Shown here piece after piece: positions 8,749-24,156 of a stretch of 64,000 nucleotides of DNA (its first letter is position 1; the number at the start of each line of letters is the position of its first letter). The stretch is from the NCBI GenBank assembly GCA_029212745.1, contig JARGOL010000006.1, forward strand, positions 1-64,000, given 5' to 3'. The notes below the pieces were generated by a model. That model did not search any database, was not told the DNA's origin, and was given only the letters and a program-made list of their open reading frames with translations. The position numbers were made by a program, and so were the translations under genes. This DNA is from Alcanivoracaceae bacterium. Lineage in GTDB: Bacteria > Pseudomonadota > Gammaproteobacteria > Pseudomonadales > Alcanivoracaceae.

Positions 8749-9482
8749 GCCGCACCCTGTTCATTTCCGATCTGCACCTGGACAAGGAGCGGCCGGAACA
8801 CCTTGAGGCATTGCGCGCGTTTCTCGATCACACGGCCCGCGACGCCGAAGCACTCTATGTGCTCGGCGACCTGTTCGAGGCCTGGATCGGTGATGACGAC
8901 GACGATGCCTTCAACCGTGCGGTCATCGAGGCATTCAGGCACTGGTCCGATGACAATGGCGCGCTCTACTTCATGCACGGCAACCGGGATTTCCTGCTCG
9001 GCGAGCGCTTCGCCGCCGAGGCCGGTGGCCGCCTGATTCCAGAGGGCACCGTGGTCGACCTGTACGGTCGCCCCACCCTGCTCATGCACGGCGACAGCCT
9101 GTGCACCGCCGACGAGAAGTACCAGCAGTTCCGCGCCATGGTCCGCACCGAGCAGTGGCAACAGGAGTTGCTGGCAAAACCGCTGGAAGAACGCCGCGCC
9201 ATTGCCGCCGACATGCGCCGGCAGAGCCAGCAGGACAATGCCAACAAGGCCGGCAACATCATGGACGTGACGCCGGGGGAAGTGGTGAAGGCCATGGAGA
9301 ACGCCGGCGTGCACGACCTCGTTCATGGCCATACCCACCGGCCGGCGGTGCATGACATCGCCCTGGGTGCCGGTGCCGGCAAGCGCTGGGTGCTCGGGGA
9401 CTGGGGCGACAACGTCTGGTACCTGCAGGCAGACAGCACCGGCAACCAGCTGGTGGATTACCCTGTCACCCCTGCCTCGTAG
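8745..9482 (+). CDS. lpxH: UDP-2,3-diacylglucosamine diphosphatase (lipid A synthesis)
   Basis: Hydrolyses UDP-2,3-diacylglucosamine to lipid X plus UMP at the inner face of the inner membrane, the fourth step of lipid A synthesis. It is 245 residues, near the E. coli length. The metallophosphoesterase motifs are in order: FISDLHLD (residues 5-12), GDLFEAWIGDD, HGNRDFLLG, LMHGDSLCT, and GHTHRPAVHD near residue 195. Its start overlaps the preceding cyclophilin gene by 4 bp. A bidirectional terminator follows at 9514. Confidence 0.96.
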   Translation: MSRTLFISDLHLDKERPEHLEALRAFLDHTARDAEALYVLGDLFEAWIGDDDDDAFNRAVIEAFRHWSDDNGALYFMHGNRDFLLGERFAAEAGGRLIPEGTVVDLYGRPTLLMHGDSLCTADEKYQQFRAMVRTEQWQQELLAKPLEERRAIAADMRRQSQQDNANKAGNIMDVTPGEVVKAMENAGVHDLVHGHTHRPAVHDIALGAGAGKRWVLGDWGDNVWYLQADSTGNQLVDYPVTPAS

Positions 9483-9513
9483 TGACCCGCACCGTCCGTG
9501 ACGGCATAAGAAA

Positions 9514-9538
9514 AAGCCCGCCAATGGCGGGCTTTTTT
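9514..9538. terminator. Bidirectional intrinsic terminator
   Basis: GCCCGCC-AAT-GGCGGGC hairpin flanked by A5 on the left and T6 on the right. It can end both lpxH (plus) and the beta-helix gene (minus). Confidence 0.9.
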
Positions 9539-9557
9539 GTCTGCACGGTGACCCCGT

Positions 9558-12083
9558 TCAGCTGGCACGCCGGCGCCGCAGCCAGGCCAACGCTGCCATG
9601 GTGCTGAAGAACACCATCGGCATGCTGCCGCTGTCGTCGTCATCATCCAGCAGGGCCGCCAACTCGGCGTCGCTGGCACCACCGCCACCACCGGCCGCCT
9701 TGACGGTGACATCGAAGACCTCCGTGGTTGACAGTGACGGGGTACCGTCGTCGCTGACAACCACCGTCACACGGAAGTCACCGGCGGCAGAGAGCTCTCC
9801 GCTGATGGAGCCTTCGTTATAGTCAATCCCTGCCGGCAAGCCGGACACCGAAACAACGGAGATCGTGTCGTCCTCGGCATCCTCGAATGCATCAGCCACC
9901 GGAATCGGCCCCACCTCTGTACCCACCTTGCCGGACAGCTGGGAGCCAATATTCACAGCCAGGGTCGGCGCCGTGTTGACGGCCGGATCCAGGTATTCCA
10001 CGGCGCCCAGGTCAGCCGAGGTGTCAGCCGCCGCCGGCGCTACGCCCCGCTGGTCCTCGCCATTGGGCCGGGCCTGGCCTTCGCCGGCATCCACCACATA
10101 ACTCATCGCGCTGGATGGCGCGTGGGTGAGCGTCGGGCCACCGTTATCGGCCAGCGCACCCAGCTCCGGGTCCACCTCGGCCGGCGCGCCAGTGATCGTG
10201 GTAGCACCCTCACCGTAGTCGATCTGGCCCTGGGTCATCACCGTACCAAAGATGTCCACAGACATGGGGTCTGTGCCGCCGTTGATACCACCTGCGGAGG
10301 CCAGGCTGCCGCCGTTGAAGGCGGCCTCGTAGTCATTGCTCGAGGCAAACACGCTGTTCGTCAGCGTCGCCTCCGTGCTGGTGCTGTACGGCGTGGCGTT
10401 CTTGGGCGCGAAGTGGACCTGTGCCGTATCCACACCGGCGCCTGCGTTGTCGACAAAAGTGCTGTGGGTCACATCCAGGGAGCCAATACCCTCAAACACG
10501 ATCGGTGCGCGCGCCTGGGTGGACGTATTGCCCGAGAAGGTGCTGTTGAGTACCTCGGCGGAGTTACCACCACTGTAGTAGCCGCTGAAGTCATCGATGT
10601 TCACCGCCGCAAACGGGCCGCTGTTACCGGACACGGTGGTATTGCGGATGGTCATGGACGCGGAGCCCTCGTAAGGCTGGAGGTTGACCTCCAGACCACT
10701 GGCACTGCCTTCGCTGTCAGAGGTGCTGTTGTTACTGATGGTGGAATCGACGATGGTCAGGTCGCTGCTGTAGCCAACATCCACCTCCAGCCCGCCGGTG
10801 CCATTCGCAGAGCTGTTGTCCTCGATGGTCGTCCGCGACAGGGTCATGGAGCCCTCGTAGAAGAACACGTCCATCCCGCCGGCGCCACGGTCCGCACTGT
10901 TGCCGGAAATCAACGTATCAGACAGGTCCACATCGAAAATACCGCTGACATTGATGGCGCCATCAGAGCCGGCCGACGTGTTGCCCCTGAACAGCGAACC
11001 CTCGATGCTCAATGAACCACCCGAGCCCTGGACATTCAGGGCGCCGGCTGTGCCTTCGCTGGCATCGGTGGCCTGGTTACCGACGAAGCTGCTGGAGCTG
11101 ATCGAAACGCTCTCGGAGCCTTCATTGCTGATATGGACGGCACCGCTGCTGTAGGCACTGTTGCCGCGGAAGGCACTGCCGCGAATGTACAGGTCGGCAC
11201 CGCTGCTACGCACCGCCCCGCCCCGGCCATAGGTGGTGCTGTTGTTAGCGAACACCGTGCCGTAGATTTCCGTGCTGCCGCCGTAGCGCACCCGCAGCCC
11301 GCCGGGACCGCCCAGTGCAGTGTTTCCACTCACTTCACTGGCTTCGATGTCGACATTACTTTCGTTGGCATAGATCGCGCCTGGGCCTTCGCTGTCGGTG
11401 GTGTTGCCACTGATCTGTGAGCCGCTGATGAACAGGCCCTCACCCAGGTAACGGGCAGTCACCGGCGCTTCGGTGCTGGTGTTACCGGTGATTGCCGTGT
11501 TGTTGATGGACACGTAGACGATATTACGCGCCTCGATGGCACCCTCGCCCTCGGTGCCGATGTTGTCGGCGAAGACGCTGTCGTTAACAGTCAACGACCC
11601 GCCGCCTTCACTCCGGACACGCACCAGTGCCGACTCATGGCTGGAGCCGGTGACATTGACGTCATTGAGGACAATTTCGCCGGCATAACTGTCCACCAGG
11701 CCACGATCAAGCGCCACTACGCTGACGCCCTCGAGGGTGAAGTCAGAGCCTTCCTGGACCTCGAACAGCTCGCCTTCCCCGGTTGTGCCGACAATGGTCA
11801 GCAGCTCGGAGCCCGGCCCGGTGATGGTCAGCCGGCCGGAAGAATCATCCACGTCGGTCAGCTGCATATTATTGACGTCGATGACGCCGGTGGTGTCGAG
11901 CACGATGGTATCCGGCCCTTCGTTGCTGTTCGCAAGGCCAATGGCAAAATCCAGAGAGCCGGGCCCGAAGGCGTTGTTTGTCGTCACCGTGAATGTTTGT
12001 GCCGATGCCGTTCCCGAAGCCATGCCAATGGCGGCCGCGAGCGCACCCAGCGCCAGGTTGTTGTGGTTGTCTGATGGGGGCAT
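9558..12083 (-). CDS. Secreted right-handed beta-helix protein, choice-of-anchor Q type (copy 1)
   Basis: 841 residues. The signal peptide (LALGALAAAIGMASGTASAQ) is followed by a long parallel beta-helix region rich in SGN/NNS turns (for example ALVRVRSEGGGSLTVNDSVF, ISGNTTDSEG), about residues 30-600. Next is the choice-of-anchor Q block (LADNGGPTLTHAPSSAMS...DQRGVAP...LGAVEY), then a cadherin/putative-Ig-like domain (NTAPTLAVNIG...VTVK), an Asp-rich linker (LDDDDDSG), a hydrophobic segment and terminal RRRR. That tail is a C-terminal sorting/anchor signal, so the protein is probably displayed on the cell surface. The ATG at 12083 is preceded by AGGAGA; the longer open frame from 12167 would bury the signal peptide. 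It is divergent from the hydroxylase-sulfotransferase gene. The ligand is unknown. Confidence 0.88.
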   Translation of the reverse strand: MPPSDNHNNLALGALAAAIGMASGTASAQTFTVTTNNAFGPGSLDFAIGLANSNEGPDTIVLDTTGVIDVNNMQLTDVDDSSGRLTITGPGSELLTIVGTTGEGELFEVQEGSDFTLEGVSVVALDRGLVDSYAGEIVLNDVNVTGSSHESALVRVRSEGGGSLTVNDSVFADNIGTEGEGAIEARNIVYVSINNTAITGNTSTEAPVTARYLGEGLFISGSQISGNTTDSEGPGAIYANESNVDIEASEVSGNTALGGPGGLRVRYGGSTEIYGTVFANNSTTYGRGGAVRSSGADLYIRGSAFRGNSAYSSGAVHISNEGSESVSISSSSFVGNQATDASEGTAGALNVQGSGGSLSIEGSLFRGNTSAGSDGAINVSGIFDVDLSDTLISGNSADRGAGGMDVFFYEGSMTLSRTTIEDNSSANGTGGLEVDVGYSSDLTIVDSTISNNSTSDSEGSASGLEVNLQPYEGSASMTIRNTTVSGNSGPFAAVNIDDFSGYYSGGNSAEVLNSTFSGNTSTQARAPIVFEGIGSLDVTHSTFVDNAGAGVDTAQVHFAPKNATPYSTSTEATLTNSVFASSNDYEAAFNGGSLASAGGINGGTDPMSVDIFGTVMTQGQIDYGEGATTITGAPAEVDPELGALADNGGPTLTHAPSSAMSYVVDAGEGQARPNGEDQRGVAPAAADTSADLGAVEYLDPAVNTAPTLAVNIGSQLSGKVGTEVGPIPVADAFEDAEDDTISVVSVSGLPAGIDYNEGSISGELSAAGDFRVTVVVSDDGTPSLSTTEVFDVTVKAAGGGGGASDAELAALLDDDDDSGSMPMVFFSTMAALAWLRRRRAS

Positions 12084-12265
12084 GAATGAGTCTCCTGCTG
12101 ACGTCCGTTTCCAGTTTCCCGAGCTGTATGCCTGCATGCAGGAACGGGCTTGCCGTTCCATTTGCAAGGCGCAGACACCCTTGATAGCAAATTCAGGCCA
12201 TGGGCTCTACTCCGTCAGGCACGGTTTTTTCGCCGGTTGGCGGCGGTGCAGACAGCAAACCACAA

Positions 12266-12301
12266 CACTTGAGCCCCCGCCGACGCTGTGGTCTTCTATG
12301 C
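12266..12301 (+). promoter_or_regulatory. Conserved upstream element of DUF4915 genes (copy 1)
   Basis: A 36-bp block beginning CACTTGAG and ending TTCTATGC, 26 bp before the ATG at 12327. It matches 29 of 36 bases with the block at 19109-19144, which lies in front of the other DUF4915 gene. TTGAG and TTCTA sit 19-20 bp apart in both copies, so it may be a promoter or an operator. Confidence 0.55.
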
Positions 12302-12326
12302 ATTCACGCGAGAGAGCAGTACCAGC

Positions 12327-15300
12327 ATGCAATTGAACCACCCCTTTATTCGCCTGCCGATTTCGTTTGATAACAAACGCTTGCAGGAAGAAGTTGAAGC
12401 CATTGAAGAACAAGCCTGGCAGCCCCACCCACAGGGCTTTGCCGGCAATTCCGCGCTGTTGCTGATTGCTCGTGACGGCGATCCCCGTGATGACGCCCTC
12501 AATGGCCAGATGGCACCCACCCCGAACCTGGACCGCATGCCCTACCTGCGCCAGGTCATGGCCAGCCTGAAAACCACCTGGGGCCGGTCGCGCCTGATGC
12601 GCATTGACGGCAATGCCGAGGCCAACCGGCACATGGATGCCAATTACTATTGGCACCAGCGCGTGCGTGTACACGTACCGCTGGTCACCACACCCAACGT
12701 GGATTTCCTGTGCGGCGACAGCCGCGTTCACATGGCTGCCGGTGAGTGCTGGATCTTTGATACCTGGGCTCACCACAATGTCATCAATCCCGACCCCACC
12801 CGCCGCATCCACCTGGTGGCCGACACGGTCGGGTCAGCCCATTTCTGGCAGATGGTGGCCCGCGGCACGCCCCATTCCGCGCAGGAGCGGCGCCCGCCGG
12901 ACGCCGACCTGCCGCTGGTCCCCTGGGACCCGCAGGCCGATCCCCTGCTTGCTTTCGAGCGCTATAACGCCCCGGGCATCATGTCGCCCTGGGAAATGCG
13001 CAGTCTCGCCGACCACATACTCTCTGACCTGGCACCCCAGGACGCCAGCGCCGTGACCCAGGCACGCCGCCTGGTGGATGACTACATTCACGACTGGCAT
13101 GCGTTGTGGGCCATCTTTGCCGACCAGCCAGAGGGATTGCCCCTGTACCAGCAACGCCGGGACCAGTTTGCCGAGGCGCTGAAGACGGTCAGTGACCTGC
13201 CGCTAGGCAACAACATGCGTCTGGGCGGCATGCTGCTGCAGGCACTGGTCAACCCGGTCATCAATCCGGAGCTGTTGCGCCAGCCTTCGGCCACGCCGGC
13301 GACACAGGACAGCGGTGGTGTCCGGTATGACGCGCCGGCGATCCGCCACGAAACCTTTGCCGTCGCCGATGCGGCGCGCAGGGCATCTCCGGCACCCGGC
13401 CCGGCCCCGGCGCCAGCCCGCTTCGAGCGCCCGGTATTCATTGTCGCCGCGCCGCGCTCCGGCTCGTCCTGGCTGTACGAACTGATGAGCCAGTCGACCG
13501 ACTTCCTCTCCCTGGGTGGAGAGGGCCACGGTCATGTAGAATCCATCCCGGGCCTCGGCGTGGATCCGACATCGGACCGCGGCAACGCGTTGGATGCCAG
13601 TGATGCCAGCGACGACGCCATTGGCTCACTGAAAGCCAACTACATCGCCACCATGAAAAATGCCGCCGGCGAACCGGTGACACCCCGTGGGCCCTTCCGG
13701 TTCCTGGAAAAAACCCCCAAGAACGCCCTGCGGGTGGCTTTCCTGAAAAAGGCGTTCCCGGATGCCCGATTCATCTACCTGCACCGGGACCCGCAGAGCA
13801 ATATCGCCTCGATCATCGAAGCCTGGCACTCAGGGCGGTTCGTTACCTATCCGCAACTGCCGGGACGTGACCAGCCCTGGTCACTGCTGCTGCCGCAAGG
13901 CTGGCAAGCCATGCACGGCAAATCGGTGCCGGAGACCGCCGCCTGGCAATGGGCCCGGGCCAACCAGGCCATCCTCGAGGCACTGCAGGCCATGCCTGAC
14001 AGTGACTGGTGCCATGTGTCCTATGCGGACCTGAAAGAGAATACTGACGAAACACTGGCCGCACTGTGCCAGTTCGCCGGCGTCTCAACCCCGGATGCGG
14101 TGGATGACGGCGCACTGTCACGACATACACTGACGCCACCGAAGAAAGACAAGTGGCGCAAGCACGAGGCTGACATCAGTGCCAGCCGCGCCCTCTGGGC
14201 GCCCATCGCAGACACCCTCGCCGCATTGCCGGCACACGGCAGCGACAAGGAATCCGCACCGATGACAGAGACGAGCAACACCAACACCCCGGCCACACCC
14301 GCAGCGGACACCGATACGGCATCGGGCGACGCGGGCACCACCCAGGCACAGGCCCCGGACTTCAGCTCGGTGCACACCAACACCCTGCATGAACTGCTCG
14401 AGCGCGGAAACCTGTCGCTGGTGGCCACTACCTACCAGGCCGGCAAACTGATCTTCGTGCGCAAGCAGGACGGCAAGGTCAACACCCACTTTCGCATGTT
14501 CCACAAGCCCATGGGCCTGGCGGGCTCCCGGGAAGGGTTTGCCATCGGCACCCTCAACGAGATCCAGGAATTCCGCAACGTGCCCGCCGTGGCCCAGCGT
14601 ATCGAGCCAGCCGGCAGCCATGACGCCTGTTACATCCCGCGCAGCAAGCACACCACTGGCGACATCGATATCCACGAGATGAGCTATGACAAGGATGGTG
14701 AGCTGTGGTTTATCAACACGCGCTTCTCCTGCCTGTGCACGCTCGACAAGGACAACAGCTTCGTGCCCCGCTGGCGGCCGCCGTTTGTCACCGGTTATGC
14801 GCCAGAGGACCGCTGCCACCTCAACGGGCTGGCCATGCGTGATGGCGTGCCCCGCTACGTCACCATGCTCGGCCAGACCAATGAGATGGGTGGCTGGCGC
14901 GAGAACAAGCGCGACGGCGGCCTGCTGATGGATCTCGACGACGAGCGCATCATTGCCACCGGCCTGTCGATGCCGCATTCCCCGCGCTGGTACAAGGACA
15001 AACTCTGGCTGCTCGAATCCGGTTACGGTTCACTGTCCACCATTGATCCGGACACTGGCGAGAAGACCGACATCTGTCACCTGCCGGGCTTCACCCGCGG
15101 CCTCAGCTTCATTGGCGACTACGCCGTGATCGGCCTGAGCCAGGTGCGTGAATCCGCTGTGTTCTCGGGACTGCCCCTTACCGAGCGCGACGAGCCGCGC
15201 TATTGCGGCATCTGGATCGTCAACATCAACACCGGCAAGACTGAGGCGTTCCTGCGCTTTGAGGGCTCGGTGCAGGAGATCTTCGCCGTGCATGTACTGG

Positions 15301-15515
15301 AAAACCAGACCTTCCCTGAACTGCTGGAGCCGCATGACCCCCTGATTAACTCGTCCTACGTGCTCCCCGACGAAGCCCTGCGCGAGGTGGATTTCGAATC
15401 CATAGAGCGCCACCAGAAAGAGGCCCGTGAAAAAGCCGCACAGGAAAAACAACACAAAGAAGCCGCCGGCAGCGCCGGCGCTGAAACCACCGATGGAAAA
15501 GCCACAGCATCATGA
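12327..15515 (+). CDS. Three-domain fusion: Asp/Asn hydroxylase-like + sulfotransferase + DUF4915 (TIGR03032)
   Basis: 1062 residues with no signal peptide, so probably cytoplasmic. Residues 1-180 resemble aspartyl/asparaginyl beta-hydroxylase: H102, then RVHVPL, then WIFDTWAHHNV with H150 and R160; spacings fit the Fe ligands and 2-oxoglutarate-binding Arg of that family. Residues about 367-640 are a PAPS sulfotransferase: the 5'-phosphosulfate loop VFIVAAPRSGSSWLYELM and the 3'-phosphate motif FIYLHRDPQSNIASIIEAW. Residues about 678-1040 form DUF4915/TIGR03032, probably a beta-propeller-like fold of unknown function. The stop overlaps the next oxygenase start by 4 bp. ATG 12327 is preferred to GTG 12288. 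Inference: it hydroxylates and/or sulfates a protein or metabolite, possibly the neighbouring beta-helix proteins. Confidence 0.85.
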   Translation: MQLNHPFIRLPISFDNKRLQEEVEAIEEQAWQPHPQGFAGNSALLLIARDGDPRDDALNGQMAPTPNLDRMPYLRQVMASLKTTWGRSRLMRIDGNAEANRHMDANYYWHQRVRVHVPLVTTPNVDFLCGDSRVHMAAGECWIFDTWAHHNVINPDPTRRIHLVADTVGSAHFWQMVARGTPHSAQERRPPDADLPLVPWDPQADPLLAFERYNAPGIMSPWEMRSLADHILSDLAPQDASAVTQARRLVDDYIHDWHALWAIFADQPEGLPLYQQRRDQFAEALKTVSDLPLGNNMRLGGMLLQALVNPVINPELLRQPSATPATQDSGGVRYDAPAIRHETFAVADAARRASPAPGPAPAPARFERPVFIVAAPRSGSSWLYELMSQSTDFLSLGGEGHGHVESIPGLGVDPTSDRGNALDASDASDDAIGSLKANYIATMKNAAGEPVTPRGPFRFLEKTPKNALRVAFLKKAFPDARFIYLHRDPQSNIASIIEAWHSGRFVTYPQLPGRDQPWSLLLPQGWQAMHGKSVPETAAWQWARANQAILEALQAMPDSDWCHVSYADLKENTDETLAALCQFAGVSTPDAVDDGALSRHTLTPPKKDKWRKHEADISASRALWAPIADTLAALPAHGSDKESAPMTETSNTNTPATPAADTDTASGDAGTTQAQAPDFSSVHTNTLHELLERGNLSLVATTYQAGKLIFVRKQDGKVNTHFRMFHKPMGLAGSREGFAIGTLNEIQEFRNVPAVAQRIEPAGSHDACYIPRSKHTTGDIDIHEMSYDKDGELWFINTRFSCLCTLDKDNSFVPRWRPPFVTGYAPEDRCHLNGLAMRDGVPRYVTMLGQTNEMGGWRENKRDGGLLMDLDDERIIATGLSMPHSPRWYKDKLWLLESGYGSLSTIDPDTGEKTDICHLPGFTRGLSFIGDYAVIGLSQVRESAVFSGLPLTERDEPRYCGIWIVNINTGKTEAFLRFEGSVQEIFAVHVLENQTFPELLEPHDPLINSSYVLPDEALREVDFESIERHQKEAREKAAQEKQHKEAAGSAGAETTDGKATAS

Positions 15516-16150
15516 GTAACGAAAGCGACACCGCCGCGGGCACCGCGGCAGATCCGATCCAGGCACGCTGGCACTTCGGCGTACCGATCTACGAAAAACA
15601 CCTGCCCCGTTCCCTGGAGAAGATGCCCAGCATCATCCAGCACATCTATCGCATCAAGGATCGCGACACGGGCATCACACGCAGCAACCAGGGCGGCTGG
15701 CACTCCGGTGACCGCCTGCATACGACCAAACATGAGGACACCCGCTGGCTGATCCATCGCCTCCTGCAGGTCAGCACACAGTGCATCAAGGATTTCGAAG
15801 GCGACCGGCCGATAAAAGACGTACGCATGGTGTCGGCCTGGGCCAACATCAATTACCAGGGCAACTGGAATGCACCCCACGAGCATCTGCCCTGCACCTG
15901 GTCGGGTGTGTTCTACATTGACTCCGGCGAGCCGACCACCGGCGATGATGAACGCTCACTGGAAGGAAAGGTCCTGTTCTTCGACCCGATGCCGCTGGGG
16001 CGTGAGTGGAAACGGCCACCCAACGTCGGCTACCGGCCGGTCTCCGGGACCATGTTGCTGTTCCCGTCGTTCCTGACACACATGGTGGCGCCGTACTTTG
16101 GCGACAAGCCGCGCATATCACTGGCATTCAACCTGAACGTGGTGCGCTGA
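15512..16150 (+). CDS. Putative 2OG-Fe(II) oxygenase (TIGR02466-like)
   Basis: 212 residues. The double-stranded beta-helix signature is visible: NAPHEHLPCTWSGVFYIDSG with the first Fe-ligand His, then MLLFPSFLTHMVAPYFGDKP with the distal His, and RISLAFNLNV with the 2-oxoglutarate-binding Arg. The family resembles the TIGR02466 group of small oxygenases, whose substrates are mostly unknown. It is translationally coupled (ATGA overlap) to the hydroxylase-sulfotransferase-DUF4915 fusion, so the two should act together. No signal peptide is seen. A DNA/RNA-repair role is less likely given the context. Confidence 0.8.
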   Translation: MSNESDTAAGTAADPIQARWHFGVPIYEKHLPRSLEKMPSIIQHIYRIKDRDTGITRSNQGGWHSGDRLHTTKHEDTRWLIHRLLQVSTQCIKDFEGDRPIKDVRMVSAWANINYQGNWNAPHEHLPCTWSGVFYIDSGEPTTGDDERSLEGKVLFFDPMPLGREWKRPPNVGYRPVSGTMLLFPSFLTHMVAPYFGDKPRISLAFNLNVVR

Positions 16151-16154
16151 ACTG

Positions 16155-16274
16155 CCCTCACCCCGACCCGGCCCTCACCCCACTCCCAGGGGGAGAGGGG
16201 CTTGAAACACGGCAGACGTAAGTAGAGCCATCTGGAGGGCCCCCTCTTCCCCAGGGAGAGGGACAGGGTGAGGG
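16155..16274. repeat. Dispersed GGGAGAGGG palindromic repeat
   Basis: Half-units CCCTCACCCC...GGGAGAGGGG and CCCCTCTTCCCCAGGGAGAG...GGGTGAGGG lie directly after the oxygenase stop. Confidence 0.85.
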
Positions 16275-16327
16275 GGCCACCATCACCCTGCGTACCAACC
16301 CGCGCGGCCACCCGGCACCATCCACTG

Positions 16328-16358
16328 AAAAAAAAGCCCGCCAGATGGCGGGCTTTTT
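16328..16358. terminator. Bidirectional intrinsic terminator
   Basis: GCCCGCC-AGAT-GGCGGGC with A8 on the left and T5 on the right, between the convergent oxygenase and beta-helix copy 2 genes. Confidence 0.9.
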
Positions 16359-16379
16359 CGTCAACGACACAAGGTCATA

Positions 16380-18920
16380 TCAGCGACGCCGACGGCGCAG
16401 CCAGGCCAGTGCCGCCAGGGTGCCGAAGAACGCCAGCGGCGTGCTGCCACTGTCATCATCGTCATCCAGCAGCGCTGCCAGCTCGGCATCGGACGGACCT
16501 TCACCATCACCCACGGTGACGTCGAAGGTGGCCGTGGTGCTCAGTGACGGCTCGCCGTCATCAGCCACCGTCACCTTCACCTGGTACTCGCCCTGCGTGG
16601 CCAGTTCACCGATGATGGAGCCCTCGTTGTACTCCAGGCCCGGCGGCAGGCCGAGAACAGACACCACGGAGATGTTGTCTTCCTCAGCGTCCTCGAAGGC
16701 ATCTGCCACGGGGATCGGTTCCGGCAACACAAAACCGACGTTGCCGGAAATCTTGCTGCCGATATTCACCACCAGTGTCGGGGCCGTGTTGACTGCCGGG
16801 TCCACGTATTCCACGGCACCCAGATCAACATTGAAGTCCTCGGCGACACCGCGCTGGTCAACACCGTCCGGGCGATTACCGCCCTCGCCCACGGCATCCA
16901 CCACCGCACTCATGGCACTGAGGGGTGCGTGGGTCAATGTCGGGCCACCGTTGTTGGCCAATGCGCCCAGCCCCGGATCAATACCGAAGCCGTCATCGGC
17001 CAGCACACCGATCCGGTTGAATGAGGTGGATTCGCTGTAACCCAAATCGCCCTGCGTCATCACCGTGTTCTCGATGGTCACCGCCAGGCTGTCGACCGTG
17101 CCGGCATAGCCGCCGTCCAGCGTCAGGTCACTGGCATTGAGGATCACCTCAACATCGTTGCTGGATGACAGCACCGAACGCTCCAGGGTAAAGCTGGTCT
17201 CGGAGTACCCGGTAGACGTCGCCGCAATGTGCACCTGACCGGAATTGACGCCGACACCCGCGTTGTCGATGAAGGTACTGTGCCGCACAGCTGAATAGTC
17301 GAAGCCCTGGAACACGACCGGGGCCCGTTCCATGTCGCTGGCGTTACCGGAGAACGTGCTGTTCTCGACGTTGACACTGCCAAGACCGCCATCGTCGTAG
17401 AACGCAGCATGGACCGCCGGCCCATCACCCGCATTGCCCGAAATGGTGGACTGGGAAATGGTCAGCATGCTGTCGTATTCCTCGCCGTCAGCAGAGAAGC
17501 GCAACCCGGACACGGCGCCGTCGGTGCCAGCCGTCTGGTTGTCGCTGATGGTGGACTGCGATATCTCGAAGTCGCCGTACTTGTCACCGTCAATCTCCAC
17601 ACCACCGGTGCCGTTGGCAGAGGAATTGCCCCGGATGGTGGAACCGGCAATGCGCCCGTCGAGGCCGTTCAGGTCGATCACCAGGCCGCCACCACTCTCG
17701 CCGGCGTCATTGCCTTCCACCAGGGAATTCTCGATGTTCAGCCCGGACAGTGCGAAGCCGGCCACAGCACCACCATAGGTGTCTGCCGAGTTGCCCGTGA
17801 GCACCGTTTCACCCATGTTGAACGACAGCCCGCCACCCACGAGGATGGCACCGCCGGCACCGTACTTGGGGCCGCCCTCGGGCAGCTCAGTGGGCACGCG
17901 CGCCTCATTGCCGACAAATGAACTGCCCTCGATGATCACCGGCAGGCCGCCACCCGGAGGCGCCGGCGGACCGTACTTGATCACCGCCACTGCGCCACCC
18001 GTGCTGGCACGGTTGCCGGAAAACGAGGAATTCTCGATCGCGGTCACACCCGCCGGCAGAAGCAGCATGCCGGCGCCCGCACCATATTCGGCGCTGTTGT
18101 TCTCAAACACCGAGTACTTGACCACCACCTCGCTGGCGATGCCCACCACACCCGGGGACAGGTACTTCAGATCTTCAATACCACCCGGCTCCACAAATTC
18201 CGGGTTGGTGTTGCCGCTGATCACGGAATCGGTGATTTCAACGTCCGCGTCCAGGGCAAAAACCGCCGCAGAAAGGTTGTCGTTGTCGATCAGCTCGGAG
18301 CCGTCAATGTCCAGGCTACCGCCGAAAACGGTAATCACCGGCGCCCGGCCACTGTGGCTGTCAAAGGTGCTATCCGTGATAGTCACGTCTGCATAGGGCG
18401 CAAACACCTGGCCATATTTGCCGTCGCCATCAGAGCCGGTAATCCTGACATCTTCCAGGGAGACACTGCCCTCAGAGAAGCTGACAACAGCGCCGGCGTC
18501 CGCGCCACTGATAGTCAGGCCCGAGATCGACAGGGGCTGTGACACCACACTCAGGAACAAGGGTGAGTCCGGTCGGCGTTCGGCCCGCGGCTCCGGACCG
18601 ACTTCTCCACCGCTGAAATCGCGGCCGATAATGGTCAGGTTGTCTTTACCCGGCCCAACGATGGTCAATGAGCCAGAGCCGTCAAAATGCGGCGGCAACT
18701 CCACTTCACTGAGATCCATGGTGCCGGTGGCCGTAATGTTGATGGTATCGTCTTCGCCATTGTCCCCGGCCAGGCCCATGGCAAAGGCCAGCGAACCGAC
18801 ACCGCCGGAGGCAGTGGATGATACGGTGAATGTAGCCGCCGGCGCCGTGCCGGAAGCCATGCTGACGGCAGCCGCAAGGGCCCCCATTGTGATGTTCTTC
18901 TGTTTCTTGCCCAGGGGCAT
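16380..18920 (-). CDS. Secreted right-handed beta-helix protein, choice-of-anchor Q type (copy 2)
   Basis: 846 residues, paralogous to the genes at 9558 and 20509. Signal peptide ITMGALAAAVSMASGTAPAA; beta-helix repeats with SGN/EGN turns from about residue 40 to 620; choice-of-anchor Q block (LGALANNGGPTLTHAPLSAMS...DQRGVAED...LGAVEY); cadherin/Ig-like module (NTAPTLVVNIGS...FDVTV); Asp-rich linker; hydrophobic segment (PLAFFGTLAALAWL) and RRRRR end. The terminal 120 residues are nearly the same as in copy 1, while the helix body differs (more Pro/Gly loops such as GPPAPPGGGLPVI). ATG 18920 is preceded by GGAGAT; the longer frame from 19010 is unlikely. It is divergent from the stand-alone DUF4915 gene. 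Confidence 0.87.
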   Translation of the reverse strand: MPLGKKQKNITMGALAAAVSMASGTAPAATFTVSSTASGGVGSLAFAMGLAGDNGEDDTINITATGTMDLSEVELPPHFDGSGSLTIVGPGKDNLTIIGRDFSGGEVGPEPRAERRPDSPLFLSVVSQPLSISGLTISGADAGAVVSFSEGSVSLEDVRITGSDGDGKYGQVFAPYADVTITDSTFDSHSGRAPVITVFGGSLDIDGSELIDNDNLSAAVFALDADVEITDSVISGNTNPEFVEPGGIEDLKYLSPGVVGIASEVVVKYSVFENNSAEYGAGAGMLLLPAGVTAIENSSFSGNRASTGGAVAVIKYGPPAPPGGGLPVIIEGSSFVGNEARVPTELPEGGPKYGAGGAILVGGGLSFNMGETVLTGNSADTYGGAVAGFALSGLNIENSLVEGNDAGESGGGLVIDLNGLDGRIAGSTIRGNSSANGTGGVEIDGDKYGDFEISQSTISDNQTAGTDGAVSGLRFSADGEEYDSMLTISQSTISGNAGDGPAVHAAFYDDGGLGSVNVENSTFSGNASDMERAPVVFQGFDYSAVRHSTFIDNAGVGVNSGQVHIAATSTGYSETSFTLERSVLSSSNDVEVILNASDLTLDGGYAGTVDSLAVTIENTVMTQGDLGYSESTSFNRIGVLADDGFGIDPGLGALANNGGPTLTHAPLSAMSAVVDAVGEGGNRPDGVDQRGVAEDFNVDLGAVEYVDPAVNTAPTLVVNIGSKISGNVGFVLPEPIPVADAFEDAEEDNISVVSVLGLPPGLEYNEGSIIGELATQGEYQVKVTVADDGEPSLSTTATFDVTVGDGEGPSDAELAALLDDDDDSGSTPLAFFGTLAALAWLRRRRR

Positions 18921-19108
18921 GACGGATCTCCATGTGTCGGGTTCAACTGCTCTGCCGGCTCGCATGGACGAGACGACGATGGTGCGGCCCGGGTTTGCCA
19001 AGCGCGTCACAAAATTTCAGTGCTCACTAATACCAAATTATTATGCCCAAGGCCAACTTTGAGACAGTGGTCACATATCCGGCAACGGTCCTTGCCTGCC
19101 TGCGGGCG

Positions 19109-19144
19109 CACTTGAGGCCCGACCGGCGCTGTGCTTTTCTAGGC
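19109..19144 (+). promoter_or_regulatory. Conserved upstream element of DUF4915 genes (copy 2)
   Basis: A 36-bp block, CACTTGAG...TTCTAGGC, 68 bp before ATG 19212. It is 29/36 identical to 12266-12301, though the flanking DNA is not similar. Confidence 0.55.
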
Positions 19145-19211
19145 CCCCGCACAACGCAACCCCGCCGTCCGCTTGAACGGCCGCCGCAGGAACCACGCAA
19201 GGACACTGAAA

Positions 19212-20426
19212 ATGACGCAGACGAGCCCCGGTGAAGGCTATGGTGCCCGCACGACGACAGCCGCGGACCCGGCCGCCAGCAGCCCGCCACAGACACCCGA
19301 TTTCCGCTCGGTTCACACCAGCACCTTCCTGCAGCTGCTGGAACGGGGAAACCTGTCCGTGGTGGCCACCACCTACCAGGCCGGCAAGCTGATCATCGTG
19401 CGCAAGCAGGGTGACCAGGTGAATACCCATTTCCGCATGTTCCGCAAACCCATGGGCATGGCGGGACGACGTAACGGCTTCGCCATCGGCACGGTCAACG
19501 AAATCCGGGAATTCCGTAATGTCCCGGCCGTGGCCCAGCGCATCGACCCGCCAGGCAGCCATGACGCCTGCTACATCCCCAGCAACAGCCATACCACCGG
19601 CGACATCGATATCCATGAGATGGAGTACGACAAGGACGACCGCCTCTGGTTTATCAATACCCGTTTCTCCTGCCTGTGCACCATGGATGCCGACAACAGC
19701 TTTGTGCCGCGCTGGCGCCCACCGTTTGTCAGCGGCTACGCCCCGGAAGACCGCTGCCACCTCAACGGCCTGGGCATGCGCGACGGCGTGCCCCGCTATG
19801 TCACCATGCTCGGGCAGACCAACGAGATGGGGGGCTGGCGTGAGAACAAGCGCGATGGCGGCCTGCTGATGGATCTCGAGGATGAACGCATCATTGCCAG
19901 CGGCCTGTCCATGCCGCACTCGCCGCGCTGGTACAGGGACAAGCTCTGGGTACTTGAGTCGGGTTACGGCTCTCTCTCCACCATCGACCCGGACAGCGGC
20001 GAAAAGACCGACATCTGCCACCTGCCCGGCTTCACCCGCGGCCTCAGCTTCATCGGCGATTACGCCATTATCGGCCTGAGCCAGGTACGCGAGTCCGCCG
20101 TGTTCTCCGGCCTGCCCCTCACCGAGCGCGAGGAGCAACGCTACTGCGGCATCTGGGTGGTCAACATCACCAATGGCAAGACGGAAGCGTTCCTGCGCTT
20201 TGAGGGCTCCGTGCAGGAGATCTTTGCCGTGCAGGTGCTGGTCAACCAGACTTACCCGGAGCTGCTGGAACCCCATGACCCACTGATCAACAGTTCCTAT
20301 GTGCTGCCCGATGAGGCGCTCAAGGAAGTGGACTTCGAATCCATCGAGCGCCACCAGAAAGCGGCGCGGGAAAAAGCCGAACAGGCGAATGCCGCAAAAG
20401 ATGCCGGCGGCGGCGCCGGGTACTGA
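19212..20426 (+). CDS. DUF4915/TIGR03032 family protein, stand-alone
   Basis: 404 residues, strongly similar throughout to the C-terminal third of the fusion at 12327 (shared stretches such as LLERGNLS, VATTYQAGKLI, FVPRWRPPFV, GYAPEDRCHLNGL, MLGQTNEMGGWRENKRDGGL, LESGYGSLSTIDPD, ICHLPGFTRGLSFIGDYA). The regular recurrence of strand-turn segments suggests a beta-propeller-like fold (inference). No signal peptide is evident. The family is known to co-occur or fuse with sulfotransferases, but its activity is unknown. ATG 19212 has AAGGA 9 bp upstream. It lies between beta-helix copies 2 and 3, divergent from copy 2. Confidence 0.86.
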   Translation: MTQTSPGEGYGARTTTAADPAASSPPQTPDFRSVHTSTFLQLLERGNLSVVATTYQAGKLIIVRKQGDQVNTHFRMFRKPMGMAGRRNGFAIGTVNEIREFRNVPAVAQRIDPPGSHDACYIPSNSHTTGDIDIHEMEYDKDDRLWFINTRFSCLCTMDADNSFVPRWRPPFVSGYAPEDRCHLNGLGMRDGVPRYVTMLGQTNEMGGWRENKRDGGLLMDLEDERIIASGLSMPHSPRWYRDKLWVLESGYGSLSTIDPDSGEKTDICHLPGFTRGLSFIGDYAIIGLSQVRESAVFSGLPLTEREEQRYCGIWVVNITNGKTEAFLRFEGSVQEIFAVQVLVNQTYPELLEPHDPLINSSYVLPDEALKEVDFESIERHQKAAREKAEQANAAKDAGGGAGY

Positions 20427-20475
20427 GCCGGTCAACAGCCGCGTATGACCGGGCCAGAGCGCCCGGCCCATGGCC

Positions 20476-20506
20476 AAAAAAAATCCCCGCCGGAGCGGGG
20501 ATTTTT
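20476..20506. terminator. Bidirectional intrinsic terminator
   Basis: ATCCCCGC-CGGA-GCGGGGAT hairpin with A7 on the left and T4-5 on the right, between the DUF4915 gene and beta-helix copy 3. Confidence 0.9.
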
Positions 20507-20508
20507 CC

Positions 20509-23199
20509 TCAGCGCCGGCGCCGGCGTCGCAGCCCCAGCGCAGCAAGGAGCGACAACCACATGCCCCCCAGCAGGCCGCTGCTGCTGCTGTCATCAATGA
20601 ACACGGCGTCATTGTCCTTCTTGACCACTACACGTCCCTGCACCGTGGTCTCCAATGCTGGCGAGCCGTCGTCAATGACTGTCACGGTGACAAAGTACTC
20701 GCCCGCCTGCTCCAGCGTGCCCGATACAGTGTCCGGTATCGGCGACCAGGTCAGGCCCGCCGGCAAGCCGTCGACACTCACTGTGCTGACCGCATTGCCA
20801 TCCGGGTCCACGAACAGGTCAGCGACAACGAGGGTCTCCACCGTTTTCCCTTCATTGCCGGCCAGCTTGGACAAAAGATTGACATCCAGCTGCGGCGGCC
20901 GGTTTGCCGTGTACTCCACAGCGCCCTGGTCTGTCGTGCCCTGATCTGGCACGCCGCGTTGGTCAGTGCCGCCGGGACGACCGCCCTCACCCACATCAAT
21001 GCCGGGCGCCAGCGCACTGGTGGGCGCATGGGTCAGCGTGGCGCCACCGTTATCGGCAAGGGGGCCCAGCTCCGGGTCCACATTGATGACCGAGGCCGGC
21101 GACACAGTAGCCCCCTCTGTGCTGTCAAAGCCCCGCTCCAGATTGCTGTCACCGATGGTCAGTGTCGGCTCAAGGGAATCAACTGACGTGCTGCCGACAC
21201 CGTCCAGGCTGAGGGAATCCCCTCCCACGAACACCTCAGTACTGTTGGAGGAACTGAAGATGCTGTTTGCGATGGTGAAGTTGGGGGCCTCACTGGTCAG
21301 GTTGTCGCCGTTATAATACTGCGTAGCCGCCAGATGGAACTGGGTGCTGCCACTGCCAGCGCCGTTGTTATCCACCACCGTTGAACTGTAAATGAAACCG
21401 CTTTCAACATCCCTCACGGCGATGGCCGCGGTGGCATCACTGGAGCGGTTGCCGGAAATGGTGGAATTGCTGATGGAAAGCACCGAATAGAACGCGGATT
21501 CGAGCTCATTGCCAGCGTAGGCAAAGCGTTCCGAATCGAATTCCAGCGCACTGGCGGTGCCTCCCGCCCGGTTACCGGAAATGGTGGAGCGATCAATATT
21601 GACGTCCACGAATTCCTCGAAGTTGAATTCCAACGCCGGTCCGTCGGAGGCGCTATTGTCAGCAATGGTCGAGTCTGTGACCTGCATGTCCTGACCGTTC
21701 TGGAGATTCGCAATCAAGGCGGCCGCACGCGGGGCGGTATTCCCGGACACGGTCACACCGGTGAATTCCACGGTACCGTAGCCATAGCCGCGAATGGAGA
21801 GGCCACCACCGAGCTCCTCAGCCCTGTTGCCGTCCACCAGCGTGTTTTCCAGTAACAGGTTGGCGCCGGACACAGACAGCGCGCCGCCGTCGCTCATTGC
21901 CACATTATCCCGGAAAACGCTGTCGCTGATGTCCGTGCCGCCCTCACCAAAGGTGTAGATGGCACCACCACGGTTACTGCTTTCGTCATCGGGCTTGCCG
22001 GCATCATCCGAACGATTCTTGATGAAAGACGAACCGGATATGGACAGGGAGCCCGAAGTACGAATGGCACCACCATCGTCAAACGCCTGGTTGGCGGAGA
22101 ACAGTGAATTGGTAATGCTGATGGCGGCGTAACCGGAGTTGATCGCGCCACCATCATCATAGGCAAAGTTGCCACTGAAGGTGCTGTTGCTGATGTCCAC
22201 CGTGCCTTCATAGCCCACTGAGAGTGCACCACCGTCACTGTCAGAAAAGCCACGGGTTTCATTGTCACTGAGGATGCTGTCACTGATTTCCAGTGACGGA
22301 TCACCGGTCATCTTGATGGCACCGCCACCACCGGAACTGTTTTTAGACAGCGTGGAGCCGGTGATGCTCAGTGACGCCGTAGTGGCAGAACGCAGCAAAA
22401 TGGCACCACCGCCTGCGGCAGAACCCTCATACTGGTTATTCGCACTGTTGCCGCTCAGCTGGCTGTTGACGATCTCTACACTGGAATCGAGCACGTAGAG
22501 CGCACCGGAACCGCCGCTGCCATAGCCAGTATTGGTGTTGTTCTCCATGGTCACGCCGTTGAGGTACGCCGTGGAATCAACAACGGAAAGCGCCGGCGAC
22601 AGTGTCGACGTGTTACCCGAAATAATGGTGTTGGTGACGGTCAGGTTGGCGCTGTTGGTCACCAGTATCACCGAGTCATCATCCAGCTCATTATCTTTGA
22701 AAACACTGTTGCTGATGGTCACTGTGGTGCTGGCGGCGGCGGCGCGCACCAGCGGGCGCACTGACGAGGTCCCGGTGATACGCACATCATCAAGCTCCAG
22801 CGTGCCTTCGCCGCTGATTTCAAACGCCCCGTAGGTGCTGTTCTGAATGGAAAGCCCTGACACACTCAGGCTGCCACCGGATGCCAGCAGCGGCGATTCC
22901 GAGCTGAGCAACGACGCGTCGATAGTCAGCCCGCCAGAACCTGGTCCATTGATGTCCAGCGTACCAATGATGGTTGGCAGTGGCTGGCCCAGGGCCAGGG
23001 AGCCGGAAATGGTGAAGGCGATGTCGTCGGCCGTACCGGCCTCATTGGCGGACTGCACGGCGTGGAGAAAACTGCCAGGCCCGGAGGCGTTCTTGTTGCT
23101 GACGGTGAAAGTCTGCGCCACGGCCGGGCTTGATGCAGTGGCAATGGCGGCGGCGAGCGTGGTCAGGCAGAGCTCTGACCGGGAACTGGAGCGGGACAT
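20509..23199 (-). CDS. Secreted right-handed beta-helix protein, choice-of-anchor Q type (copy 3)
   Basis: 896 residues, the largest of three paralogues. Signal peptide CLTTLAAAIATASSPAVAQ; Ser/Asn/Gly-rich beta-helix to about residue 700; choice-of-anchor Q block (LGPLADNGGATLTHAPTSAL...DQRGVPD...GAVEY); Ig-like module (RPPQLDVNLLSKLAG...VVVK). The tail DDSSSSGLLGGMWLSLLAAL-GLRRRRRR differs from copies 1 and 2 and is close to GlyGly-CTERM-type sorting signals (small/Gly residues, transmembrane helix, Arg cluster), which are normally processed by rhombosortase and linked to type II secretion. ATG 23199 has GGAGG just upstream. Mature proteins are expected at the surface. Confidence 0.87.
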   Translation of the reverse strand: MSRSSSRSELCLTTLAAAIATASSPAVAQTFTVSNKNASGPGSFLHAVQSANEAGTADDIAFTISGSLALGQPLPTIIGTLDINGPGSGGLTIDASLLSSESPLLASGGSLSVSGLSIQNSTYGAFEISGEGTLELDDVRITGTSSVRPLVRAAAASTTVTISNSVFKDNELDDDSVILVTNSANLTVTNTIISGNTSTLSPALSVVDSTAYLNGVTMENNTNTGYGSGGSGALYVLDSSVEIVNSQLSGNSANNQYEGSAAGGGAILLRSATTASLSITGSTLSKNSSGGGGAIKMTGDPSLEISDSILSDNETRGFSDSDGGALSVGYEGTVDISNSTFSGNFAYDDGGAINSGYAAISITNSLFSANQAFDDGGAIRTSGSLSISGSSFIKNRSDDAGKPDDESSNRGGAIYTFGEGGTDISDSVFRDNVAMSDGGALSVSGANLLLENTLVDGNRAEELGGGLSIRGYGYGTVEFTGVTVSGNTAPRAAALIANLQNGQDMQVTDSTIADNSASDGPALEFNFEEFVDVNIDRSTISGNRAGGTASALEFDSERFAYAGNELESAFYSVLSISNSTISGNRSSDATAAIAVRDVESGFIYSSTVVDNNGAGSGSTQFHLAATQYYNGDNLTSEAPNFTIANSIFSSSNSTEVFVGGDSLSLDGVGSTSVDSLEPTLTIGDSNLERGFDSTEGATVSPASVINVDPELGPLADNGGATLTHAPTSALAPGIDVGEGGRPGGTDQRGVPDQGTTDQGAVEYTANRPPQLDVNLLSKLAGNEGKTVETLVVADLFVDPDGNAVSTVSVDGLPAGLTWSPIPDTVSGTLEQAGEYFVTVTVIDDGSPALETTVQGRVVVKKDNDAVFIDDSSSSGLLGGMWLSLLAALGLRRRRRR

Positions 23200-23334
23200 G
23201 ACGTCCTCCGTGACGGATACATGTGAGTATATGACCGGCACAACAGGGTGGCACCGCAATGGCGTCCTGCTGGCCGACATGGCGGCATTACAAGCACGTG
23301 TACCAGTGTTAACACAGCGTGACGACCACCGCTA

Positions 23335-23952
23335 TCACGAAGCGTCAATTTGCGACGGAATGCCAGAATGAAAGCGGAAATCCTCATCCTTTTCGGCGAT
23401 AAGCCGCCGCTCTTGCTCGACAAAAAAGGCGACTCGAGAATCGATGGGTTCTCCGGCATAGAGTTCAGCCAGCTGCAGGTAATCCTCGAAATGGCGTGAC
23501 TCGCTTTTGAGCAGGAAGCGGTAATAGCGACCCAGCTCGTCGTCCACGTACGGGGCCAGGGCCGCAAAGCGCTCACACGAGCGCGCCTCGATCAGGGCGC
23601 CGATAATCAGCACGTCCACCAGCCGGCCCGGCTCGCTGGTGCGCATGTGCTGGCGCAGGCCGGCGGCATAACGGGACGGCGTCATGTGGTCATAGGTGAC
23701 ACCGCGCTTGCGCATGATCTCCAGCACCTGCTCGAAATGCAGCAGTTCCTCCCGCGCCAGCCGGCTCAGGGCGTCCAGCAGCTCGGGACGGTCCACGTAA
23801 CGGAACATCAGGTTGATGGCCGTGCTGGCCGCCTTCTTCTCGCAATGGGCATGGTCAATCAGCAGGATGTCCGGGTGTTCCAGCGCCCAGTCGATCCACG
23901 CCCGGGGCGTGGGACAGGCCAGGAAATCATGAATGTGGGAAATATCGTGCAT
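23335..23952 (-). CDS. miaE: tRNA-(ms2io6A)-hydroxylase
   Basis: 205-residue non-heme di-iron enzyme that hydroxylates the isopentenyl group of 2-methylthio-N6-isopentenyladenosine at A37 of tRNAs reading U-starting codons. Ferritin-like di-iron ligands are visible in order: DHAHCEKKAAS, REELLHFEQVLEIM, IEARSCERFAAL and KSESRHFEDYL. The opening MHDISHIHDFLACPTPRAWI is typical of the family. ATG 23952 has GAGAGG upstream; the open frame continues well beyond it, but that extension translates repeats. It needs MiaA and MiaB, which are not in this window. Confidence 0.93.
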   Translation of the reverse strand: MHDISHIHDFLACPTPRAWIDWALEHPDILLIDHAHCEKKAASTAINLMFRYVDRPELLDALSRLAREELLHFEQVLEIMRKRGVTYDHMTPSRYAAGLRQHMRTSEPGRLVDVLIIGALIEARSCERFAALAPYVDDELGRYYRFLLKSESRHFEDYLQLAELYAGEPIDSRVAFFVEQERRLIAEKDEDFRFHSGIPSQIDAS

Positions 23953-24000
23953 GGCACCCTCTCTGCGTCGCGGCGCGATTCTAGCAGCTTGATCACCCCT

Positions 24001-24090
24001 GTAGGAGCGGCGTGCACGCCGCGAACCGATTGCCCGTGCTCCACCGTATCCATCCCCCGCATCCATTCGCGGCGTGCACGCCGCTCCTAC
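24001..24090. repeat. REP-like inverted pair of a 25-bp element
   Basis: GTAGGAGCGGCGTGCACGCC plus GCGAA at 24001-24025 is repeated exactly in inverse orientation at 24066-24090. A third, near-identical copy lies at 52727-52751. It resembles the GTAGGAGCGG REP family of pseudomonads. Confidence 0.85.
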
Positions 24091-24156
24091 GGGTAATGGC
24101 GGGCAGGTGCCACAGCGGCATGGACACCAGCCCCCCGGCAGGCATAATCCCCGCCC

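Follow-up and report, generated by a model that had tools for sequence, protein, structure and literature searches.

A 64,000-nucleotide stretch of DNA from an Alcanivoracaceae bacterium (GenBank assembly GCA_029212745.1, contig JARGOL010000006.1, positions 1 to 64,000; referred to here as the window) carries an accessory island in which three genes for choice-of-anchor Q (choice-Q) beta-helix proteins, designated A, B, and C, alternate with genes for a hydroxylase-sulfotransferase-DUF4915 fusion, a second 2-oxoglutarate- and Fe(II)-dependent (2OG-Fe(II)) oxygenase, and a stand-alone DUF4915 protein. The whole set is a block insertion with sharp edges at one site, and gene neighborhoods in other genomes support the view that such enzymes and beta-helix proteins form a recurrent unit in several phyla. 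The enzymes of the island probably modify the three adjoining surface proteins. Our best explanation, to which we give about even chances, is a cytoplasmic hydroxylation and sulfation system for exported beta-helix proteins.

A first-pass annotation of the window had described these six genes within 14 kb and had noted that two of the three beta-helix genes, the first and the second, each diverge from a DUF4915 gene. Profile matches confirmed all six within positions 9558 to 23199, with catalytic motifs intact, and the coordinates bore out the divergent arrangement.

A block insertion between lpxH and miaE

An lpxH match was found in 38 of 40 genomes of the window's family. The site was examined in 37 genomes, from 30 short loci and 16 longer regions that came partly from the same genomes, with G309 left out. 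The site was empty in 25 of the 37, with a miaE-like gene directly after lpxH and 49 to 298 bp between the aligned ends. At three sites (the window, G223, and G298), an oxygenase gene and a triple-fusion gene were accompanied by two or three genes for choice-Q beta-helix proteins; among these three islands, the extra stand-alone DUF4915 gene belongs to that of the window. The other nine sites comprised six with other genes (G136, G295, G299, G300, G301, and G303) and three short loci assigned to neither class (G297, G306, and G314).

The order of the island genes differs between the window and G223 or G298, and the kinds of gene are the same. Identity between the window and G223 was 59% for the fusion and 70% for the oxygenase (72% between the window and G298 for the latter) but only 31 to 35% for the beta-helix proteins. 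Judged from these alignments, the enzymes appear steady and their beta-helix partners fast-changing. The 3.3-Mb genome, in 25 contigs, has two DUF4915 matches, both in the island. Three of its four choice-Q ORFs (open reading frames) are also there, and the fourth is on contig C7. Modification of lipid A, which the neighboring lpxH might suggest, was considered and rejected because lpxH stands at the site in island-free genomes of the family too.

Co-location of the enzymes and beta-helix proteins in other genomes

The first-pass annotation had proposed that the enzymes and beta-helix proteins are linked, and had offered as a check whether choice-Q genes lie within 10 kb of DUF4915 genes more often than chance. 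They do. Among 244 genomes of the order, DUF4915 was over its cut-off in 22, and choice-Q was matched in 38 (35 over the cut-off). Choice-Q was present in 9 of the 22 DUF4915 genomes versus 29 of the 222 others (Fisher p = 0.002; p = 0.006 without the window). A choice-Q gene lay within 10 kb of DUF4915 in 6/22 genomes versus 0.14 expected; without the window the count was 5/21 versus 0.08 expected (P = 4e-9), and without G223 as well it was 4/20 (P = 1.6e-7). The two genes were on different contigs in G126 and G214, and in G045 both were at contig ends and could not be placed. G132 and G178, from the genus of G199, were not among the regions fetched for the neighbor count, and G031 and G069 were under the cut-off. 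Neighboring genes were counted in 18 of the 20 regions fetched from the order; the two left out were a choice-Q contig without DUF4915 (L044) and a region in which the contig end cuts DUF4915 (L050), with a gene order like that of L037.

A wider scan covered the 80 loci that best matched the DUF4915 of the window, out of at least 579 relatives (at least 585 stretches), and these are not a random sample. They came from Cyanobacteria, Planctomycetes, Chloroflexi, Actinobacteria, Acidobacteria, Verrucomicrobia, Deltaproteobacteria, and Gammaproteobacteria, by taxon labels as recorded; some of these labels (Klebsiella and Bifidobacterium, for instance) have the look of binning errors. Loci were scanned with our own choice-Q profile, built from 12 seeds, and with a simple gene caller that fails in some GC-rich loci (e.g., L206). 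A choice-Q ORF was found in 30 of these 80 loci and in 5 of the 18 from the order, with the nearest one no more than 3.5 kb away in all 35; where more than 8 kb was available on both sides, the count was 22/49. For 50 genomes from other groups, 22 loci had a choice-Q ORF versus 2.0 expected from the density in the same genomes (P = 3e-20), a figure that combines per-genome choice-Q counts with the locus results of our own profile. These 50 were taken from the 80 loci as those on contigs longer than about 12 kb, with L095, L110, L113, L123, and L125 left out (only L095 has choice-Q). Choice-Q was present in 49 of the 50 genomes. Because the order-wide count, the count without the window, and the count in other groups all far exceed expectation, the pairing is beyond chance.

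The hydroxylase-sulfotransferase-DUF4915 form was found in Pseudomonadota, in one Acidobacteriota record and one Verrucomicrobiota record, and in a Microthrix-like group. A Beta_helix protein over the Pfam cut-off adjoins the fusion in five other lineages (L100, L102, L104, L115, and L127), with choice-Q in four; no anchor model was common to the partners in these five. L101, which a contig end cuts, L112, in which a stop interrupts the fusion, and L119, which has a weak sulfotransferase match though a choice-Q ORF adjoins, were not counted. Among 28 chosen genomes, a two-domain hydroxylase-sulfotransferase (AspH-Sulf) occurs without DUF4915 in G258, G266, G268, and G293, and the hydroxylase occurs alone in G265. 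The AspH-Sulf gene of G258 (L207; Wenzhouxiangella sp. XN79A) is divergent from a gene for a choice-Q beta-helix protein that is 1280 residues long and ends in an IPTL-CTERM tail. Thus, the proposed linkage gained from co-location, from the block in three family genomes, from the fusion beside a beta-helix gene in five further lineages, and from AspH-Sulf in one more, and gene order in several phyla supports a recurrent unit.

In G265 (L209:9251-15992), the region around the AspH-like gene encodes a protein of 623 aa with a sulfotransferase-like match and one of 1001 aa whose C-terminus is outer-membrane-like by eye, a hint that such enzymes have a further use.

Layout of the island

Table 1. 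Features of the accessory island and its flanks, in window coordinates
Feature	Position	Strand	Evidence or remark
Accessory island	9483..23334		Inserted between lpxH and miaE
Beta-helix protein A, choice-of-anchor Q	9558..12083	-	NF041518, 43.7 bits; start ATG at 12083, termini by eye
Hydroxylase (PF05118) + sulfotransferase (PF13469) + DUF4915/TIGR03032 propeller fusion	12327..15515	+	ATG start at 12327 from sequence
Second 2OG-Fe(II) oxygenase, TIGR02466 / PF13759 (2OG-FeII_Oxy_5)	15512..16150	+	Profile matches
Beta-helix protein B, choice-of-anchor Q	16380..18920	-	PF13229, E = 7e-14; NF041518, 41.5 bits
Stand-alone DUF4915 protein	19212..20426	+	PF16261, 427 bits
Beta-helix protein C, choice-of-anchor Q	20509..23199	-	NF041518, 38.3 bits
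Left flank, lpxH (UDP-2,3-diacylglucosamine diphosphatase), outside island	8745..9482	+	NF003743, 307.6 bits
Right flank ORF, outside island	23335..24723	-	C-terminal ~205 residues = miaE-like gene; PF06175 at residues 261-453

The coordinates in Table 1 run from likely starts chosen from the sequence (12083, 12327, 18920, 19212, and 23199); the full ORFs extend over 9558-12167(-) for A, 16380-19010(-) for B, 20509-23280(-) for C, 12288-15515(+) for the fusion, and 19173-20426(+) for the stand-alone DUF4915 protein. Within the full fusion ORF, Asp_Arg_Hydrox spans residues 77 to 180, Sulfotransfer_3 residues 382 to 603, and DUF4915 residues 700 to 1012. The start of the oxygenase gene overlaps the end of the fusion gene by 4 bases. 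Genes A and B are the two that diverge from DUF4915 genes; gene C is convergent with the stand-alone DUF4915 gene.

Catalytic domains and beta-helix proteins

The hydroxylase domain matched PF05118 at 46.2 bits (cut-off, 22.6). Residues H102, D104, H150, and R160 were invariant in nine fusions (H102 and D104 are counted from the Met at 12327); we take the first three to be the HxD...H iron ligands and R160 to be the downstream Arg of 2OG-Fe(II) oxygenases. By profile, its nearest solved relatives were L-proline cis-4-hydroxylase (4p7w; E = 1e-13) and proline 3-hydroxylase (1e5r, with the entry name proline oxidase; E = 4e-7), and beta-hydroxylase ranked third. The proline hydroxylases act on the free amino acid, and they differ from the domain in the island, which is fused to a sulfotransferase and DUF4915.

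The sulfotransferase domain matched PF13469 at 87 bits (cut-off, 27). The P19 R20 S21 G22 S23 loop (PRSGS), an EKTPKN segment, R130, and S138 were invariant in 10 fusions, and the loop and the Arg/Ser pair are presumably the sites for 3'-phosphoadenosine-5'-phosphosulfate (PAPS). An APS kinase gene, for PAPS, is present in the genome. The nearest solved relatives were the CurM sulfotransferase (4gbm; E = 3e-16) and then protein-tyrosine sulfotransferases (E = 2e-12). CurM sulfates a hydroxyl on an acyl chain bound to acyl carrier protein (acyl-ACP) before elimination; protein-tyrosine sulfotransferases act in the Golgi.

All three beta-helix proteins passed the choice_anch_Q NF041518 cut-off of 25 bits, and only protein B passed that of Pfam Beta_helix. 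Identity to B by local alignment was 43% for A and 29 to 31% for C. By eye, protein A has a signal peptide-like N-terminus and a C-terminal hydrophobic segment with an Arg tail. As a group, the beta-helix proteins have N-termini that are signal-like and C-termini that are anchor-like, and by a crude test the enzymes beside them show no signal peptide. The genome encodes a rhombosortase (155.8 bits; cut-off, 84), and by eye the C-terminal tails look right for its substrates (GlyGly-CTERM type). No sorting-signal model was over its cut-off in the beta-helix proteins; MYXO-CTERM reached 16.8 against a cut-off of 20 (protein B).

The DUF4915 family and its other partners

Both DUF4915 proteins of the window matched PF16261 over the full-length domain (427 bits; cut-off, 35) and TIGR03032 at 417.5 and 416.6 bits (cut-off, 251.5), and the two domains are 87% identical. 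The stand-alone protein has no signal peptide by eye. A confident structural model of this protein (mean pLDDT, 94.1) predicts a six-bladed propeller. Its best fold matches were nidogen and low-density lipoprotein (LDL) receptor-type YWTD domains (Z from 24 down to about 21), a gluconolactonase (Z = 21.2), and strictosidine synthase (Z = 20), and all 975 aligned chains had a Z of at least 5, as expected of a common propeller. Foldseek placed virginiamycin B lyase first (TM score, 0.41); by Z, the YWTD propellers lead. The shared propeller fold shows no function for DUF4915. A search by sequence for a solved homologue gave none that was convincing, only fragments of PNGM-1 and quinoprotein glucose dehydrogenase at E values of 0.013 to 0.02.

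Polar residues unvarying in 46 DUF4915 sequences, all rather close to that of the window, include R35, H106, D151, H154, N156, R181, H207, R210, R247, R264, R281, and E307, among others. In a wider set (n = 15), N156 remained invariant and H106, D151, H207, R210, R247, R264, and E307 were conserved at 90% or above, with R35, H154, R181, and R281 below that level. Conservation of this kind is more suggestive of a site for catalysis or for a ligand than of a scaffold alone.

DUF4915 occurs in three forms: alone, followed by TPR repeats with or without a glycosyltransferase family 9 (GT9)-like end, or preceded by the hydroxylase and sulfotransferase. Three of the five long DUF4915-TPR fusions scanned gave a weak GT9 match, which was over the cut-off in two of them. 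The neighbors of DUF4915 often include large proteins rich in small and polar residues (defined as at least 300 residues with Gly/Asn/Asp/Ser/Thr of at least 38.5%). Such proteins accounted for 52 of 337 genes up to two places from DUF4915, versus 9 of 567 genes at four or more places (Fisher p = 2e-15), and one lay within two genes in 44 of 98 DUF4915 loci. Pfam profiles on seven partners found autotransporters (L041 and L046), RTX repeats with Big or FG-GAP domains (L049 and L054), RTX with beta-helix (L062, also choice-Q), an inverse-autotransporter barrel (L059), and FG-GAP with a prolyl isomerase (L106). NCBIfam profiles on six partners found a tandem-95/choice-U protein (L052), an autotransporter (L042), a subtilisin-like protease (L077), and the prolyl isomerase protein of L106, with two lacking a match. 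Because the partners include autotransporter, RTX, FG-GAP, and tandem-95 types, DUF4915 often accompanies large exported repeat proteins in general. DUF4915 is thus the wider common factor, a point absent from the first-pass annotation.

A hydrophobic N-terminal stretch (threshold, 1.45) was found in 1 of 74 DUF4915 proteins, for which a shorter stretch was used, in 27 of 50 rich partners, and in 146 of 328 other genes, which include membrane proteins. This test offers crude support for a cytoplasmic DUF4915 and exported partners.

Several other genes were observed at DUF4915 loci. A family of about 165 aa, which we take to be GNAT-like, occurs in 13 of the 98 loci, sometimes in two copies, and lies within 0.6 kb of DUF4915 in 11 (L066:11571-12074, L071, L082, L091, L038, L047, L048, and others); two members tested had no Pfam match. 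In G229 (L038:12201-13325), a pair of DUF4915 genes precedes a GNAT-like gene and a gene encoding a radical SAM protein that carries an HMPTM zinc ribbon. A subtilase (Peptidase_S8), possibly a maturation protease, is encoded directly upstream of DUF4915 in L052 (8455-9648) and one gene away in L051 (11494-12678), and L053 and L055 have a gene of similar size at that place.

Other features of the window

The 3' end of acnB has a near copy of 300 bp (89%), the pair lying at 28360-28659 and 29443-29742. Beside the copy is a low-GC insert (29801-33097; GC, 0.45 to 0.49). It contains two ORFs, both on the minus strand (716 and 381 aa), which weakly match the candidate defense pair PDC-M65B (E = 1.5e-7) and PDC-M65A (E = 6.5e-4). 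A 300-bp direct repeat (87%) at 33225-33524 and 35561-35860, suggesting a local duplication, covers two similar short ORFs that are TM2-like by eye. A tRNA match at positions 1 to 66 (Rfam, 50.8 bits) is cut by the window edge and was not reported by ARAGORN.

Comparison with known systems

Systems that dedicate a modifying enzyme to an exported partner are already known. PMC4358343 describes the autotransporter heptosyltransferase TibC as heavily modifying its partner TibA, and the TibC/TibA and AAH/AIDA-I pairs are like the island in dedicating a modifying enzyme to a large exported protein. TibC is the closest working model for the island enzymes. These pairs differ in that they transfer sugar rather than hydroxylate and sulfate, are not known to include DUF4915, and have an experimentally shown substrate. 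Heptosyltransferases of the TibC/AAH type are GT9-type enzymes, and the tibC and tibA genes are reportedly adjacent. HMW1C modifies Asn residues of the beta-helix adhesin HMW1 in the cytoplasm before export; it differs in transferring sugar with a GT41 enzyme and in using two-partner secretion. No glycosyltransferase or autotransporter barrel model matched among the island proteins.

RaxST and RaxX of Xanthomonas likewise place a bacterial sulfotransferase and an exported polypeptide in one cluster, with tyrosine sulfation of a 60-residue precursor peptide (PMC6637879). RaxX differs in being a small peptide rather than a beta-helix protein. In RaxST clusters, which are not known to include a hydroxylase, protease/transporter genes stand beside the sulfotransferase. 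No protease or transporter was found among the called genes of the island, and the proteins covered there were of 60 aa and longer.

No paper in the literature searched names DUF4915, TIGR03032, or choice-of-anchor Q. The first-pass annotation knew of no described bacterial system of this make-up. A dedicated modifier of an exported partner is familiar; the enzyme set, its link to DUF4915, and the block insertion were not met with in the literature searched, including that on hydroxylases, sulfotransferases, and surface proteins, and appear new.

Proposed mechanism and alternatives

Under the hydroxylation and sulfation reading, the AspH-like domain, aided by the TIGR02466 oxygenase, would hydroxylate side chains on the precursor form of the beta-helix protein. 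Sulfate would pass from PAPS, through the action of the sulfotransferase domain, to a hydroxyl, either the new one or that of Ser, Thr, or Tyr, and the DUF4915 propeller would hold the exported repeat protein or process it further. The product would leave the cytoplasm via Sec and be anchored by its C-terminal tail, perhaps by rhombosortase.

Several results weigh against this reading. The pairing is far from universal: a choice-Q ORF is absent from 63 of the 98 DUF4915 loci, and 54 of the 98 have no rich neighbor within two genes. Fusion loci of the Microthrix-like group (L103, L105, L107, L111, and L112; three on short contigs) lack a beta-helix or Gly/Asn/Asp/Ser/Thr-rich neighbor, and four of the five AspH-Sulf or AspH genes without DUF4915 lack a choice-Q ORF in the 20 kb searched. 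Conversely, 15 of the 28 chosen genomes gave no match to the sulfotransferase profile at E = 1e-10, and 13 of those (G098, G158, G166, G241, G244, G249, G250, G254, G255, G260, G269, G270, and G273) have DUF4915 with choice-Q in the locus. Because the pairing persists where this profile finds nothing, it would seem that DUF4915 plays a separate role, one that hydroxylation and sulfation do not explain. The ranking of solved proline hydroxylases above beta-hydroxylase weakens the name Asp/Asn hydroxylase given in the first-pass annotation.

The first-pass annotation had argued that turns rich in Asn, Asp, and Ser suit such a hydroxylase, and composition was compared among choice-Q proteins that were linked to a fusion (n = 11), otherwise linked (n = 35), or unlinked (n = 26, from 20 chosen stretches). 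Only the Ser part of the argument held: Ser was higher in fusion-linked than in unlinked proteins (12.8 versus 8.7%; p = 0.004), but Asn and Asp were no different (p = 0.56 and 0.52), nor were Thr and Tyr. The sum of Asn, Asp, and Ser was slightly higher (p = 0.019) because Ser was raised; Glu was higher too, and Cys, His, Trp, Pro, and Ala were lower. Even these differences are weak because 7 of the 11 fusion-linked proteins come from one family and the p values are uncorrected over 15 comparisons. When the seven island beta-helices were aligned, 126 columns proved invariant, most of them Gly, Asn, Ser, Leu, or Val and none of them Tyr. These columns are structural as well and say nothing about acceptors beyond the lack of a fixed Tyr.

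The hydroxylase and sulfotransferase might instead decorate a glycan, a lipid A-like molecule, or a small metabolite; the beta-helix proteins would bind this molecule or be displayed together with it and would not themselves be substrates. We consider this unlikely, though it has points in its favor. The solved relatives of the hydroxylase include users of a free amino acid, the closest solved sulfotransferase has an acyl-ACP substrate, TPR and GT9-like domains are fused to DUF4915 elsewhere, and the island is flanked by lpxH. However, lpxH is at the site with or without an island, profile matches to Pfam and NCBIfam found no sugar-nucleotide or polysaccharide gene in the island, and in five other lineages, too, a beta-helix protein is what adjoins the fusion. 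Somewhat more doubtful is the proposal that DUF4915 serves large repeat proteins as a chaperone or export factor in the cytoplasm, with the fused catalytic domains added later to act on another substrate. The variety of exported proteins that DUF4915 accompanies, also where the AspH-Sulf sulfotransferase was not found, fits a chaperone, as does the fold that it shares with YWTD propellers, which bind peptides. A chaperone fits less well with the many unvarying polar residues in the 46 close relatives, seven of them at 90% or above in the wider 15, which are more active-site-like, or with AspH-Sulf adjoining choice-Q in L207 without any DUF4915.

In a further alternative, which we regard as improbable, DUF4915 would define a new family of enzymes. 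Its catalytic propeller would work in the cytoplasm of bacteria from several phyla, maturing giant exported repeat proteins with exchangeable chemistries (hydroxylase-sulfotransferase, TPR-GT9-like, and perhaps GNAT-like and radical SAM). Where the partner is the hydroxylase-sulfotransferase, sulfate on the new hydroxyl would be a leaving group, and the propeller would complete an elimination to give dehydro residues or cross-links within the surface protein. Polyketide chemistry of the CurM type uses sulfate in this way. That the genes merely share an integration hot spot, with no functional link, is very improbable: several family members do carry other genes at the lpxH-miaE site, but the pairing turns up again in further families, orders, and phyla.

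Implications

In several phyla, a conserved family that the literature searched does not name keeps company with large exported repeat proteins. If the hydroxylation and sulfation reading is true, bacteria would have a pathway of this kind for surface proteins encoded as one block. DUF4915 would gain a testable role, and gene order would help to predict the modification of surface proteins.

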